Virus record (IMG/VR): IMGVR_UViG_3300042539_000484
Coordinates: 1-20,937 of that record
Strand: one strand, 5' to 3'
DNA from: a virus
DNA length: 20,937 bases
Shown: piece by piece, positions 13,031 to 20,326 of the stretch
Position numbering within the stretch: position 1 is the first letter of the stretch
Layout: each line of letters begins with the position of its first letter
Program-made: the position numbers and the translations under genes
The notes under the pieces: generated by a model
The model's database searches: none
What the model was told of the DNA's origin: nothing
The model's input: only the letters and a program-made list of their open reading frames with translations

Positions 13031-13293
13031 TGCCTAACTATACTTGGATGAACAAAGAGACTGGTGAAGAATTTACTAACACCATGACCATTGCAGAACG
13101 TGATGAATACGAAAAGAACAACCCACAGTTGCAGCAAGTCATTCGCAACTTCACAATGGTTGATCCTGTCAATATCGGTGTAACCAAACCCCCAGCCGAC
13201 TTCCAAAAGTATGTATTAGGTCGTATCAAGAGTGCTGTGCCTGAGGCTTCGGCCGTCGCAAGTAAGCGTTGGGATATCCCTAAGGAGATTTAA
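13030..13293 (+). CDS. FmdB-like small phage protein, copy B
   Basis: An 87-residue homologue of the previous gene: 'MPNYTWMNKETGEEFTNTMT', 'IAERDEYEKNNPQLQQV'. The C-terminal 40 residues ('PPADFQKYVLGRIKSAVPEA' then 'KRWDIPKEI') differ from copy A and are typical of the T4-like family. It is the last gene before an intrinsic terminator, so it closes the ligase-cREC operon. No Cys ligands remain, so zinc binding is unlikely. Confidence 0.78.
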   Translation: MPNYTWMNKETGEEFTNTMTIAERDEYEKNNPQLQQVIRNFTMVDPVNIGVTKPPADFQKYVLGRIKSAVPEASAVASKRWDIPKEI

Positions 13294-13324
13294 CCTGACA
13301 GACCAGACACCTTCAAAAAAGTTT

Positions 13325-13361
13325 AGAGGTCGAGCCCGTAAAAAGGCTGCGACCTCTTTTT
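13325..13361 (+). terminator. intrinsic terminator of the accessory operon
   Basis: AGAGGTCG-AGCC (13325-13336) pairs with GGCT-GCGACCTCT (13345-13357), leaving one bulged C, with an 8-nt loop and then TTTTT. It lies 31 nt after the stop of the gene at 13030 and before phoH. It is the clearest U-tailed terminator in the window. A TGTTATGAT sequence follows directly but has no -35 box. Confidence 0.85.
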
Positions 13362-13402
13362 GTTATGATGATGTGCCTAACGATAAAAACAAAGGCAAAT
13401 AT

Positions 13403-14113
13403 ATGTCACGCAAGAGTAGAAGAAATAATAACCAGCCTAATGAGAACCATGCCGAAAAGAACCACTTTGAACTACGCCACATTCGTCCGCTAACAGTAAA
13501 TCAGCAAAGAGTGTGGGATGCTTATTATGCCGGCGCTAATCTCATGCTACATGGTTATGCAGGAACTGGTAAAACATTCCTGTCATCTTATTTGGCAATC
13601 AATGACGTTTTAACATCCGACATATATAAAAAGGTTGTTATCATCCGCTCCGTAGTACCATCCAGAGACATGGGCTTCCTACCAGGTACCGAGAAACAAA
13701 AAGCGGAAGTATATGAACAGCCCTATCAAGAAATTTGTGACGATCTATTTGGTCGTGGTGATGGATATCGCATATTGAAGATAAAGGGGCTAGTCGAATT
13801 TACTACCACATCCTTCTTACGTGGTACTACGTTTAACGACTCAATTATCATTGTTGACGAGTGCGAGAATATGACGTTTTCAGAGATCGATACAGTTATG
13901 ACCAGAATTGGTAACAACTCTCGTATCATCTTCTCTGGTGACTACAGACAGACAGACTTGCATAAGCCACACGACAAGACTGGCATTAAAGAGTTGATGG
14001 CTGTTACTCGCCGTATGGATTCATTCGATCATATTGAGTTTGGCATTGAGGACATTGTAAGAAGCGGTGTCGTTAAAGAATATATCATTCAAAAAACTGA
14101 AATGGGGCTATGA
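13403..14113 (+). CDS. phoH: PhoH-like ATPase
   Basis: A 236-residue P-loop ATPase. Walker A 'GYAGTGKT' is at 51-58, Walker B 'IIIVDEC' at 148-154, and the sensor-like 'SGDYRQTDL' at 178-186. PhoH ATPases are widespread in marine and T4-like phages; the biochemical role is uncertain (RNA helicase or nuclease-linked activity is suspected). The frame is open far upstream, through the terminator, but ATG 13403 has AAAGG 8-12 nt before it and a basic N-terminus (MSRKSRRNNN), so I start there. It appears to lack a strong promoter of its own other than a possible extended -10 at 13361-13369. Confidence 0.93.
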   Translation: MSRKSRRNNNQPNENHAEKNHFELRHIRPLTVNQQRVWDAYYAGANLMLHGYAGTGKTFLSSYLAINDVLTSDIYKKVVIIRSVVPSRDMGFLPGTEKQKAEVYEQPYQEICDDLFGRGDGYRILKIKGLVEFTTTSFLRGTTFNDSIIIVDECENMTFSEIDTVMTRIGNNSRIIFSGDYRQTDLHKPHDKTGIKELMAVTRRMDSFDHIEFGIEDIVRSGVVKEYIIQKTEMGL

Positions 14114-16024: not shown

Positions 16025-16321
16025 ATGTCAGGTACAGTTGAAGATGAATTTAATGCTTTTGCGGAATCGTTAGCAAAGAGCGAATATACCAAGGAACAGT
16101 CCGTCCTAATCTTAAAAGAATATGTCAATGTGCTAATCAAGAATAACATTCCATTAGAGCAGCGCCAGGGTGTTGCTCTAACGACTGGTGACTTCACCAA
16201 GCGTGTGCGTAAGCACGACTGGAAGTTTGCTAATGGCTTCTTTGGCAACTGGGCTAAGTCTGCCGTTGAAGGCAAGAAAGGTGAGGTCGAAGATTATGAT
16301 GACCACTATTCAGGCTGTTGA
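16025..16321 (+). CDS. hypothetical helical protein
   Basis: A 98-residue protein, 'DEFNAFAESLAKSEYTKEQS' then 'LKEYVNVLIKNNIPLEQRQG' and an acidic end (EVEDYDDHYSGC). Mostly helical with no catalytic motif. GTGAGG is the ribosome site. Its stop overlaps the exonuclease start by 4 nt (TTGA), so the two genes are coupled and may act together. No family recognised. Confidence 0.68.
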   Translation: MSGTVEDEFNAFAESLAKSEYTKEQSVLILKEYVNVLIKNNIPLEQRQGVALTTGDFTKRVRKHDWKFANGFFGNWAKSAVEGKKGEVEDYDDHYSGC

Positions 16322-16992
16322 AAACTTTTAAGCATCTACACAACGATCCTGTTCTTGTAAATCTGAAAAGAGAAGAATATAATGGCAAGCGATTTTATAT
16401 CTCGCCAAAAGGTACTAAACTCCTATCGGTTACGACTTTTCTATCTCACTTCAAAGGCGACTCTATTGAGAAATGGAGAAAAAAAGTCGGCGAAGAAGAA
16501 GCGAACAAAATCTCGGCACGAGCAAGCCGCAGAGGTACAAAATTCCATTCTCTTATGGAATCTTATATCTCTAATCAGGAAGGGTTCCTTGACGAAGATG
16601 TGATGCCTGATATGCGCCATGCGTTTCGTCAGTTTGTTCCAATCTTAGATAGAGTTGATAATGTCCATTACATGGAAACTATGCTTTATAGCGAGATTCT
16701 TGGTCTTGCTGGTCAGGTGGATTGTATTGCCGAGTTTGATGGTGTCCCTTCTATTATTGACTTTAAAACATCTTTAAAGCCTAAGAGAGAAGATTGGATC
16801 CTCAACTACTTCGAACAATGCACCTGCTACTCTCTCATGTATGAAGAAATGACAGGTGTTCAATGCAAGCAGATTGTGGTTATGATTGCCGTTGATCACG
16901 AAAAACCACAGGTGTTTGTTCGTAATCGTAAAGATTATATGCCAGAGTTGGCACGTAAGATAAGGCAGTTTAGGGATGAAACAGTTATCTAA
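16318..16992 (+). CDS. PD-(D/E)XK exonuclease, T4-like phage type
   Basis: A 224-residue nuclease of the RecB/Cas4/MGME1-like PD-(D/E)XK group. The active-site series is complete: 'RRGTKFH' (71-77), D135 in 'GQVDCIAEF', D148 and K150 in 'IIDFKTS', and Q167-x-x-x-Y171 in the QxxxY motif. Near-identical architecture is common in T4-like cyanophages and relatives, annotated as exonuclease. The start is TTG 16318 within a TTGA overlap; no ATG lies near. Likely role: DNA end processing in recombination or host DNA breakdown. Confidence 0.9.
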   Translation: MKTFKHLHNDPVLVNLKREEYNGKRFYISPKGTKLLSVTTFLSHFKGDSIEKWRKKVGEEEANKISARASRRGTKFHSLMESYISNQEGFLDEDVMPDMRHAFRQFVPILDRVDNVHYMETMLYSEILGLAGQVDCIAEFDGVPSIIDFKTSLKPKREDWILNYFEQCTCYSLMYEEMTGVQCKQIVVMIAVDHEKPQVFVRNRKDYMPELARKIRQFRDETVI

Positions 16993-17769: not shown

Positions 17770-17928
17770 ATGGATAAGCCTAAGACATTAGAAGAAAAGA
17801 AAGAACAGTTTTATGAAGGCCTAAGAAAGATCATCGAGGCTAAAGAAAAGCTAGGTCTAACAAAAGACGCTACCTATAAAAAGTCAAAAGAACTCTTGGA
17901 TAAGCTGACACAAGAAAAGACACAGTGA
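17770..17928 (+). CDS. small coiled-coil protein
   Basis: A 52-residue, Lys/Glu-rich helical protein (LEEKKEQFYEGLRKIIEAKE, 'KKSKELLDKLTQEKTQ'). TAGGAGA lies 9-14 nt before ATG 17770. Its stop overlaps the GTG start of the adenylating enzyme by 4 nt (GTGA), so it is translationally coupled to that enzyme. Its size and charge could suit a partner protein, but it shows no carrier-protein serine motif. Confidence 0.6.
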   Translation: MDKPKTLEEKKEQFYEGLRKIIEAKEKLGLTKDATYKKSKELLDKLTQEKTQ

Positions 17929-19427
17929 ATAAGATTATCACCCGTGACTGGATAAACGACGACATTGTTATCCGTTGTGGTGTGACATACAAGATGCCTA
18001 GAAAGGTGTTGATTGAAAGTTACACCAAACAGGATTTGTGTCAGTTTATAAATTTCTGGAAGGTAGAATTGCTATCTAATGGAGCCAAGCGTGGTGATAA
18101 GATAGGCTATTGTATCGAACCTTCAGACATTCACTCAACCGCACTTATGTTTGCTGCTTTCGAGTTAGGCATGAGTGTGGTTGTTTTGCATAGACCAAAC
18201 AACGAAAGAGAATGTCTGGCCCCTAAAAGTAACTCACACCTACCATTAGACTTCTTTGTTTATCTGGCAGCGTATGAGCATATTCCATTACTAGTTACCG
18301 CTATAGTTCATTTCAGTCGTAACTCAAAGAAGGTATTGGTGTATGGTAATCACGATTGGCAGAACCAGCGTTCGACTCTAAAATCAGACGAAGAAACTCC
18401 CATACTAGCCCAGCCGGGTGATGTTGCTCTATTGTGCAATAGCAGCGGCACTACTGGTGTTCCTAAACTCATATCACACTCACATGAGTTTTTCCATGAC
18501 CTATGCACGTATAACTGGGAGGTGTTGAAATATGATCCTGAGGATCATTTCATGCATCTTTCGTCGCTCAATCATGGTGCCGCATTATCATTTGTTCTAC
18601 CTGCACTACACATATGCAAGCATAACTATTTTTATGTTGATATGGGTGGCAAAGGTGAGTTACAATCAGATCCTTTCTATCAAGAATACTACGATCTAAC
18701 TAACGACTGTATTGAGCATGGCATCACCAGAATATTCTGTGCAGGTGGTGGCGCTATCAATGAGTTTATCAAACACCTAAGAGCAAGAGATATCAAGCTA
18801 CCCAATACTAACATTATGATACTATCATTCATTAGTCCTGACTGGCGTGCTGCTATCAGCGAGAGTGTGCTACAAAGCATTAACAGCCCATTTGGATGTA
18901 GTGAGGTATGTGGTCCAGTGTTCATGACATGGCTTGATAAGGATACTGTAGATAAGTTTGATCCTAGATATCTGGGATATCCTACAGAAGGCTTCTATGA
19001 TACAAAGGTCATTGATGGTCGTATTCATACTAGCACACCTTACAATCAGGTTGTCTTTGATGACATTGTAGAAGAAAGAGCCGATGGCTATTACTTCAAG
19101 AGTAAGAACAGACTGCAAAAGCTAAACGATATTGATATCAATCCAGTGGATATTATGGAGATACTTGAGCATTATAATACCAGATATGCGTTTGAGATTT
19201 ATATTGACGAGGTCTATAATGAGTTGTATATTCTAACGTCAGACTCGAAAACGTATAAGATGGGTAAGTTTATCGTGGAAGATATCGACTCGTTCTATCA
19301 CGGTAAGATACCCACCGCTAATGTCATATATGATCCCGAACTAAACCAAGCCACGATAAGCAACAAAGCGGACAAAGATAAGCTGGCAGGTATAGTTGAA
19401 AGATATCGCTTGACAAAAAACTCCTGA
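17925..19427 (+). CDS. ANL-superfamily adenylating enzyme (acyl-CoA synthetase/NRPS A-domain-like)
   Basis: A 500-residue, full-length adenylate-forming enzyme of the ANL superfamily, which activates a carboxylate as acyl-AMP and passes it to a thiol or amine. The A3 P-loop core 'LLCNSSGTTGVPK' is at 169-181, the A4-like 'LNHGAAL' at 215-221, and the A5 equivalent 'FGCSEVCG' at 323-330. An A7/A8 region follows ('FDDIVEERADGYYF', 'NRLQKLNDIDINPVDI', 378-410), and an A10-like 'NKADKDKL' at 480-487 supplies the candidate catalytic Lys. No thiolation domain is fused. The start is GTG 17925 in a GTGA overlap. The substrate cannot be read from sequence. Arg codons are mixed CGN/AGA. Confidence 0.88.
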   Translation: MNKIITRDWINDDIVIRCGVTYKMPRKVLIESYTKQDLCQFINFWKVELLSNGAKRGDKIGYCIEPSDIHSTALMFAAFELGMSVVVLHRPNNERECLAPKSNSHLPLDFFVYLAAYEHIPLLVTAIVHFSRNSKKVLVYGNHDWQNQRSTLKSDEETPILAQPGDVALLCNSSGTTGVPKLISHSHEFFHDLCTYNWEVLKYDPEDHFMHLSSLNHGAALSFVLPALHICKHNYFYVDMGGKGELQSDPFYQEYYDLTNDCIEHGITRIFCAGGGAINEFIKHLRARDIKLPNTNIMILSFISPDWRAAISESVLQSINSPFGCSEVCGPVFMTWLDKDTVDKFDPRYLGYPTEGFYDTKVIDGRIHTSTPYNQVVFDDIVEERADGYYFKSKNRLQKLNDIDINPVDIMEILEHYNTRYAFEIYIDEVYNELYILTSDSKTYKMGKFIVEDIDSFYHGKIPTANVIYDPELNQATISNKADKDKLAGIVERYRLTKNS

Positions 19428-19440
19428 TATGTTATAAATA
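19410..19440 (+). promoter_or_regulatory. tmRNA promoter: early -35/-10 overlapping a T4-type late box
   Basis: TTGACA at 19410-19415, 17-nt spacer, TATAAA at 19433-19438 preceded by TGT (extended -10). The same bases extend to TATAAATA (19433-19440), the T4 late promoter box, followed by CTATG. The promoter lies across the end of the ANL gene, so the tmRNA has its own transcription start near 19445 and could be read both early and late. Confidence 0.75.
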
Positions 19441-19511
19441 CTATGCTTAGGTCGTTGAGAGACGAAACATAGGTTTCTTGGACGTGGGGGCAGTTCCCAC
19501 CCGGTCCACCA
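19441..19511 (+). ncRNA. ssrA: tmRNA acceptor piece
   Basis: Contains the T arm (GTGGG 19484-19488, loop GGCAGTT, CCCAC 19496-19500), the acceptor 3' strand CCGGTCC (19501-19507), discriminator A and encoded CCA (19509-19511). The loop GGCAGTT differs from the usual TTCGAAT of tRNAs; I recall this form from alphaproteobacterial two-piece tmRNAs. Upstream, ACATAG (19467-19472) can pair with CTATGT (19735-19740) of the coding piece, as expected for helix P2. The 5' end is approximate. Confidence 0.85.
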
Positions 19512-19582
19512 TAAGCACTTGCGTATTAGCCGCACCATGAAAATGACGTATGCGGGGGAATGTAAATCGGGTAGTGCTTATG
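19510..19582. repeat. processing stem of the tmRNA precursor
   Basis: CATAAGCACT (19510-19519) and AGTGCTTATG (19573-19582) form a perfect 10-bp inverted repeat that closes the segment between the two tmRNA pieces. It extends nearly from the acceptor stem, so the precursor can fold with both pieces joined by one long hairpin, which is then cut out to make the mature two-piece RNA. Confidence 0.85.
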
Positions 19583-19584
19583 AT

Positions 19585-19757
19585 GGGCCGGAATCAGGTT
19601 CGACAGGATTCAGTAAGGTCGTAAGGAGACCGAAAGCAAATCGTAAATGCAAACGACAACAATGCATATGAGGCTTTCGCTCTAGCAGCGTAATCCTTTG
19701 GGTATGGGCTCCACCTCGAAACAGAACGGGCCCGCTATGTGTTCCATCGCACACGAT
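19585..19757 (+). ncRNA. ssrA: tmRNA coding piece
   Basis: Begins at GGGCCGG (19585-19591), followed by the D-loop-like GGTTCGACAGG. Within it, GGTC/GACC around 19617-19632 could be part of a pseudoknot. After the tag stop, GGGCTC (19706-19711) pairs with GGGCCC (19728-19733) and CTATGT (19735-19740) can pair with the acceptor piece. The 3' end near 19757 is inferred from the start of the hairpin at 19758. Confidence 0.82.
19649..19693 (+). other. tmRNA proteolysis tag reading frame
   Basis: Resume codon GCA at 19649, then AAC GAC AAC AAT GCA TAT GAG GCT TTC GCT CTA GCA GCG and TAA at 19691-19693. The tag is ANDNNAYEAFALAA. The AND start and the hydrophobic ALAA end match bacterial SsrA tags; the -LAA end is what ClpXP recognises. 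The extra length and E-x-F-A before LAA are of alphaproteobacterial type. Confidence 0.9.
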
Positions 19758-19796
19758 TTTCCCCTTTTTCATTATAAATACCAATGAGAGGGGAAA
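19758..19796 (+). promoter_or_regulatory. hairpin with late promoter in its loop and ribosome site in its stem
   Basis: TTTCCCC (19758-19764) pairs with GGGGAAA (19790-19796), and inside that TCATT (19769-19773) with AATGA (19783-19787). The late box TATAAATA (19773-19780) spans the inner stem edge and loop, and the SD GAGAGGGG of the next gene is in the 3' arm. Transcripts from the tmRNA promoter would hide the SD; transcripts from the late box would start after the 5' arm and leave it open. T4 gene e is controlled this way. It may also mark the tmRNA 3' end. Confidence 0.6.
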
Positions 19797-19910: not shown

Positions 19911-20105
19911 ATGAGTGAGAAAGACAAATACACTGGTATGCGTGAGTTTAACTTTGCTCTAAGCGCCAACGTCTATATCTGTGCCTTTGCCGGTTTGTTT
20001 CTAGGTGCTATTCTAGGATACTGGGCAACAGGAGTAATCGAAATCACTATCGCATCCGCAGTTACAATATCGCTTCTTTCAGGCATCTTTGGTATGTTCG
20101 TATGA
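19911..20105 (+). CDS. two-helix small membrane protein
   Basis: A 64-residue protein with a polar start (MSEKDKYTGMREFNFALSAN) and two transmembrane helices ('VYICAFAGLFLGAILGYWAT' and 'IEITIASAVTISLLSGIFGM') joined by a short turn, so N- and C-termini are on the same side. AAAGGAA is the ribosome site. It overlaps the next gene by 4 nt (ATGA). The hairpin topology resembles class II holins, but nothing more supports a lysis role. Confidence 0.68.
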   Translation: MSEKDKYTGMREFNFALSANVYICAFAGLFLGAILGYWATGVIEITIASAVTISLLSGIFGMFV

Positions 20106-20326
20106 CGCCCGACGACATTCAGAAATTCAGTTTGCAGATTGAGGAAATGGTCTATATGAAAGACATTCCTTATATCGATGCTGTTATCATGTATTGTGAA
20201 GAAACAGGATTTGAACTAGAGACAGCCGCCAAACTTATCTCTGGCGTTCTCAAATCTAAGATAAAATTAGAAGCCGAAGACCTCCACTACCTTAAGAAAT
20301 CAAACACCTCCCAACTCCCTCTCTAA
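20102..20326 (+). CDS. gp33-like late transcription co-activator
   Basis: A 74-residue helical, acidic protein: 'MTPDDIQKFSLQIEEMVYMK', 'IPYIDAVIMYCEETGFELET', 'AAKLISGVLKSKIKLEAEDL', ending KKSNTSQLPL. The scheme F-S-x-x-I-E-x-x-V ... Y-x-D-A-V-x-x-Y-C-E-x-x-x-x-E-x-x-x-A-A-K-L-I ... L-K-x-K-I-x-x-E-A-x-x-L and final LPL matches the small protein annotated in T4-like phages as gp33, which binds RNA polymerase and links late promoters to the sliding clamp. Consistent with the TATAAATA boxes nearby. The call rests on recalled family pattern. Confidence 0.62.
   Translation: MTPDDIQKFSLQIEEMVYMKDIPYIDAVIMYCEETGFELETAAKLISGVLKSKIKLEAEDLHYLKKSNTSQLPL

Follow-up and report, generated by a model that had tools for sequence, protein, structure and literature searches.

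The tmRNA gene described here raises the question of when, in the course of an infection, a phage would make such an RNA, and whether the gene belongs to the phage or was lately taken from a host. It lies near the right end of an entire virus record of 20,937 bases, which is the whole stretch of DNA that was analysed (hereafter the window). The role and timing of phage tmRNAs have so far been guesswork, and a conserved promoter that combines host-type and late elements amounts to a direct and testable statement about timing. The window encodes a complete two-piece tmRNA of the alphaproteobacterial type in an ssrA-gp33 locus that is conserved in T4-like phages. We consider it probable that this RNA would be transcribed from a fused early/late promoter, and that it would serve trans-translation together with the SmpB of the host, adding a tag of the LAA type.

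ARAGORN found a single tmRNA in the window, of the class 'Permuted' (19419-19784, tag ANDNNAYEAFALAA). At Rfam gathering thresholds the locus was matched both by RF04321 tmRNA_permuted (19450-19693, 95.3 bits, E 1.1e-17, cut-off 47) and by RF01849 alpha_tmRNA (19406-19736, 95.1 bits, E 4e-25, cut-off 50), the latter being the model with which the initial annotation had proposed to check its claim of a complete permuted two-piece tmRNA; these matches bear that claim out. All features given here are on the plus strand. ARAGORN places the 3' half of the acceptor ahead of both its 5' half and the tag. The acceptor piece (19446-19511), which ends in an encoded CCA, is based on ARAGORN and, from 19450, on RF04321, its 5' end being deduced from the -13 rule of T4; the tRNA-like domain delimited by ARAGORN comprises a 3' part at 19473-19511, with a terminal encoded ACCA, and a 5' part at 19585-19611. 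As read on the sequence, the acceptor stem has seven pairs (G19585-G19591 with C19501-C19507), the third of which is G19587-U19505, that is, G3-U70. A processing helix, with 10 perfect pairs out of 10, is formed by 19510-19519 and 19573-19582 and includes the last two bases of the CCA. The intervening segment (19512-19584) lies between the ARAGORN domains and is expected to be excised, and the coding piece follows at 19585-19740 (ARAGORN 5' domain at its start, RF01849 to 19736, 3' end approximate), with the resume-codon consensus at 19642-19659 and the tag frame with its stop at 19649-19693, both from ARAGORN. No intrinsic terminator was found at the 3' end of the coding piece. The seven-pair stem with its G3-U70 and encoded CCA, the 10-bp processing stem and the tag had all been read correctly beforehand, and the limits then proposed, 19441-19757, contain the gene, although they are loose by a few bases. 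A chance match or a pseudogene is ruled out by the two covariance models, the intact tag and the covarying helix. The folding energy of the whole segment is ordinary (z -1.09) and was dropped as evidence, so that the case for a tmRNA rests on the covariance models and on comparison, not on stability.

For this comparison, viral contigs were drawn from four scans with tmRNA core motifs, from relatives of the head protein, and from the phages Melnitz and HTVC008M. ARAGORN called at least 102 permuted tmRNAs in them, of which at least 100 are far enough from a contig end and at least 90 are distinct; the viral set is biased, the last core-motif scan contributing the matches listed. The tmRNA of the window stands in the 90-gene set as L022, with duplicates merged. 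The alphaproteobacterial set came mainly from a class-wide Rfam search, which matched 107 of 115 genomes, together with a pattern scan, and yielded 104 genes called by ARAGORN, 99 of them distinct. The counts of 90 and 99 exclude loci entered more than once from the same record, two tmRNAs of viral contigs that lie near a contig end, one viral match of the standard form, and several loci that ARAGORN did not call despite tmRNA_permuted matches (Phosso, L003, L020, L023, L028, L032, L036, L047, L049 and L053). Six excluded loci were aligned: the octamer TATAAATA, treated below, is present in L003, L023, L028, L036 and L047, and L020 is cut off. In the viral contigs L023, L032 and L053, which have equal tmRNA_permuted scores and look like copies, the match missed by ARAGORN spans 663 bases, which implies a very long intervening segment.

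Among the matches listed, the encoded ACCA is kept in all 90 distinct viral tmRNAs, G3-U70 in 89 and a tag ending in LAA in 78; LAA endings are recognised by ClpXP-type proteases. Since ARAGORN searches for acceptor and T stems, pairing in those stems is not independent evidence. The processing helix covaries across the viral tmRNAs: in 88 distinct genes its strands form a mean of 9.98 pairs with their own partners versus 4.57 with swapped partners, the highest value in 200 swaps being 5.11. Alphaproteobacterial ssrA genes, the class described by RF01849, resemble the window in gene order, acceptor identity pair, resume region and the ANDN...AA style of tag, but their helix beside the CCA is weaker (mean 4.03, swapped 2.95, n = 69). 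A shortened coding piece was considered as a phage trait and dropped: the tag stop lies close to the 3' motif in many bacteria as well, and no more than 25 of the 90 viral rows yielded that motif. A tag of 10 residues, ANDNVFALAA, is common to a large viral group (L006, L015, L019, L021, L026, L030, L042, L044 and L054), in which the start of the gene lacks an exact TATAAATA and gp33, where found, is 2-4 kb away.

The surroundings of the gene are those of a T4-like phage, as had been proposed. Upstream lie a conserved exonuclease gene (16318-16992, phrog_298, E 1.9e-71), which is also a neighbour of the tmRNA in Melnitz and HTVC008M, and, further away, a conserved PhoH-like gene (13232-14113, phrog_170, E 1.4e-78); the conserved downstream neighbour encodes a gp33-like late-transcription coactivator (20102-20326, PF16805, E 4.7e-21). 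The window also holds genes for RtcB and a DNA ligase, as well as one for a head protein like that of cyanobacterial T4-like phages; the best isolate match of this protein has 61% identity. Methylophilales phage Melnitz, a T4-like phage described with a two-piece tmRNA (PMC9004378), shares with the window a permuted ssrA (MZ577097.1; RF04321, 113.4 bits), the order PhoH - nuclease - tmRNA - coactivator, and the fused promoter TTGACA - 17 nt - TATAAATA. Unlike the window, it has the tag ANDNYVPVDYALAA and a glutamine riboswitch (RF01739) after the tmRNA, a family with no match in the window. In Pelagibacter phage HTVC008M (NC_020484) Rfam located a permuted tmRNA at 145161-145370, with PhoH and the exonuclease upstream and a late promoter factor downstream; the annotated features of that stretch include no tmRNA, and the gene differs from that of the window in its tag, ANFNEYALAA, and in having no TATAAATA at its start. 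With a small HMM trained on four gp33 proteins plus the first matches to them, a gp33 frame was detected no more than 5 kb downstream of the tmRNA in 61 of the 90 distinct viral permuted tmRNA loci (among the matches listed), and 17 of the 29 loci without such a frame have less than 2.5 kb of DNA downstream. The gene order common to Melnitz and HTVC008M, together with this linkage to gp33, indicates a standing phage locus.

Two-piece tmRNAs of phages are already known, and the window adds one member to them. In the Melnitz report, 53 of 133 distinct phage tmRNA structures are two-piece (PMC9004378), and the 2025 tmRNA database includes 79 sequences from bacteriophages, all forms taken together (PMC11915505). 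The initial annotation, which was right about the anatomy and missed the promoter, the synteny and the gp33 neighbour, had presented a permuted tmRNA in a T4-like phage as a less familiar case, a rarity that does not hold with Melnitz already in print (PMC9004378). Among 50,697 phage records, the only DNA match to the window tmRNA at E 1e-5 was Sinorhizobium phage Phosso (PV764938.1), which likewise has a permuted tmRNA (113.3 bits), but is a 469-kb jumbo phage with a much longer intervening segment. The Phosso gene (L168; 349596-350198, minus strand) is unannotated at the site and was missed by ARAGORN. The fused promoter, the extent to which it is conserved and how widely ssrA is linked to gp33 appear to be new; no report of them, and none of a fused promoter of this kind at a tmRNA, was found in the literature searched, which consisted mostly of sources other than subscription journals.

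The promoter begins with TTGACA, a -35 box of the sigma70 type, at 19410-19415, within the 3'-terminal part of the preceding gene. After 17 nt comes TATAAATA (19433-19440), the exact late-promoter octamer of T4, which doubles as a -10 box (TATAAA). In T4 this octamer sits at -13 to -6 (PMC1524935); the transcription start predicted from it is 19446, relative to which 19433-19440 occupies those positions. At the same time, TTGACA - 17 - TATAAA has the form of an early-type sigma70 promoter (TTGACA, 17 nt, TATAAT-like -10), which a promoter scan requiring T at the sixth -10 base does not list. A second TATAAATA (19773-19780), without TTGACA at -35, precedes the next small gene. The count of octamers in the whole window (2 seen, 1.21 expected) was discarded as evidence, and it is position and conservation that carry the argument. 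Scored 12-22 nt after the ARAGORN start, TATAAATA is present at the tmRNA start in 49 of the 90 distinct viral genes (among the matches listed) versus none of the 99 alphaproteobacterial ones, including none of the 27 bacterial tmRNA loci with less than 45% GC; its density in the viral loci would predict ca. 0.006 per gene, or ca. 0.5 in 90 such intervals. At least five of the six TTGACA bases are found at exactly 17 nt in 41 of those 49 genes. An alignment of 47 distinct viral upstream regions, in which the octamer is fixed by construction, shows a conserved CTTGAC and a T (0.87) three bases before the octamer, separated by a variable spacer. Since 41 of the 90 viral tmRNAs, including that of HTVC008M and the ANDNVFALAA group, have no exact octamer (among the matches listed), the fused promoter is common, not universal. 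The 90 contigs form 36 clusters at 85% identity, near relatives not being independent, and 17 of these clusters have TATAAATA and 12 the full fused promoter.

The conserved TTGACA at exactly 17 nt could also mean that the tmRNA is early only and that TATAAATA is a variant -10 box for the host sigma70. The Melnitz authors, using BPROM, predicted an early promoter ahead of their tmRNA and postulated that it acts early (PMC9004378). However, other TTGAC-spaced promoters of the same contigs have TATAAT as -10 in 84 of 341 cases and TATAAATA in 6, whereas at tmRNA genes the figures are 8 and 43 of 77, a difference that Fisher p-values overstate because the contigs are related. Moreover, TATAAATA agrees exactly with the late consensus, and in these phages it marks the borders of head genes: in 33 of 78 loci of the virus group it occurs no more than 40 nt after a head gene, against 0.31 expected, and from these positions it appears to behave as a promoter in this group. 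An early-only tmRNA is therefore unlikely. A tmRNA that is late only, with an incidental -35 motif, would account for the exact octamer in 49 of the 90 viral genes (among the matches listed), but not for a -35 hexamer at 17 nt in 39 of the 47 distinct tmRNA upstream regions against 10 of the 238 other TATAAATA sites in the same viral loci (here, too, relatedness of the contigs makes Fisher p-values overstate); we regard it as very improbable. This count and the -10 comparison supersede a looser rule for tmRNA sites, which had given 15 of 19 versus 11 of 120. With a promoter read in both phases as the preferred reading, and the same fused promoter present in Melnitz, the early-only interpretation of that gene is probably half the picture.

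Two further explanations would deny the gene a function in rescue for the phage. Integration of phages at ssrA is frequent (also noted in PMC9004378), and the tmRNA could have been captured recently from a host and persist as a passenger or as the scar of an integration, with no function for the phage. A tree was computed from 89 viral and 99 bacterial genes (188 rows, 237 columns), one of the 90 viral rows having failed a length filter. The virus label changes four times on it, compared with a mean of ca. 62 when shuffled; one branch, of modest support (SH-aLRT 69), unites 87 of the 89 viral rows with only one row, L292, that comes from a bacterial genome, and a tighter branch contains L292 together with 84 viral rows (SH-aLRT 89). 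L292 (G117:C5:288509-288849), counted as bacterial although it is surrounded by phage genes, is the second permuted tmRNA of its genome and lies beside two tRNAs; the frames around it, as read from the ORF list, are portal-, terminase- and capsid-like, so that it is probably a prophage gene. As the viral tmRNAs group almost entirely together, the gene reports phage ancestry more than the present host, and these sequences make an old phage lineage more likely than a fresh host gene. The gene is also complete, its helix covaries and a phage promoter precedes it, all of which makes a recent capture highly improbable. The other explanation is that the phage RNA acts as a decoy for, or an inhibitor of, trans-translation in the host; such a role has been proposed for the tmRNA of phage DS6A, which lacks a tag, and a tag-less form of this kind inhibits host tmRNA (PMC11915505, PMC4131195). 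In the window the tag frame, the stop, the resume region and the LAA-type ending are intact, and they are kept across the relatives; we give a decoy hardly any credence.

The initial annotation had also noted that no smpB is visible in the window, and this holds more widely: SmpB was not detected in any of the related viral records searched (0 of 17 and 0 of 22, 39 in all), which are the whole isolate genomes of Melnitz, HTVC008M and Phosso together with fragments, the record of the window itself having only 20,937 bases and two others (behind L005 and L041) being probably the same virus, while the same search was positive in 10 of 14 control genomes. A tmRNA search of the 17 records gave none in G002, G003, G005 and G009 and sub-threshold matches in G007, G012 and G016, with G015 outside. 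From these searches, host SmpB is the likely partner of the phage tmRNA. As to which host, the tie to an alphaproteobacterium that had been drawn from the type of tmRNA is weak: an alpha-like tmRNA is present in Melnitz, whose host is OM43 (Gammaproteobacteria), and the viral tmRNAs group together, so that the tree and the Melnitz host rule out inferring a host from the tmRNA type. When the first codons were fixed, a degenerate search pattern for the tag ANDNNAY(E/D) had no match in the genome collection; ANDNN with upstream bases matched 28 stretches, 12 of them titled Thalassospira, with the tags ANDNNAPVAVAA or ANDNNAPVAAAA.

In the mechanism that we propose, the host sigma70 polymerase would read the tmRNA early through TTGACA - 17 nt - TATAAA, and the late machinery of the phage (gp55, gp33 and clamp), with gp33 encoded nearby, would read it late through TATAAATA. 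The precursor would fold with a long helix beside the CCA and be cut into two pieces, the acceptor of ca. 66 nt and the coding one of ca. 155 nt. Once charged with alanine, the phage tmRNA and host SmpB would free stalled ribosomes, and broken proteins would receive a phage-specific degradation tag of the LAA type, presumably to the benefit of the phage. The combined promoter places the tmRNA firmly within the regulatory programme of the phage itself and suggests that freeing stalled ribosomes is of importance to these phages at all stages of infection. This would fit the persistence of host SsrA, which is reported to stay abundant in T4 infection while host tRNAs are degraded (PMC9697503). 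We lean slightly towards a broader proposal, namely that T4-like phages with a tmRNA of the alphaproteobacterial type have evolved a fused promoter that may be common to tmRNA and a few genes for translation and protein quality (tRNA, Hsp20-like), with phage trans-translation in every phase. If this is true, the phage supplies trans-translation also after the shut-off of host transcription, ribosome rescue is independent of the stage, and the published view of an early-acting tmRNA in Melnitz is corrected.

Directly upstream of the tmRNA, at 17925-19427, the window encodes an AMP-binding enzyme of the acyl-adenylate-forming type (500 residues, PF00501, E 7e-14). It had no tblastn match in the 50,697 phage records, and in the viral contigs it occurs in only three near-identical copies, apparently from the same phage. 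The arrangement TTGACA-17-TATAAATA was also seen in front of other genes, at position 10200 of L113, 12738 of L116 and 13111 of L108. In two contigs the gene that follows the fused promoter was read as an Hsp20-type chaperone, a name given by reading without a search, and in a third the promoter precedes a tRNA-Met and then an Hsp20-like gene, likewise named by reading.
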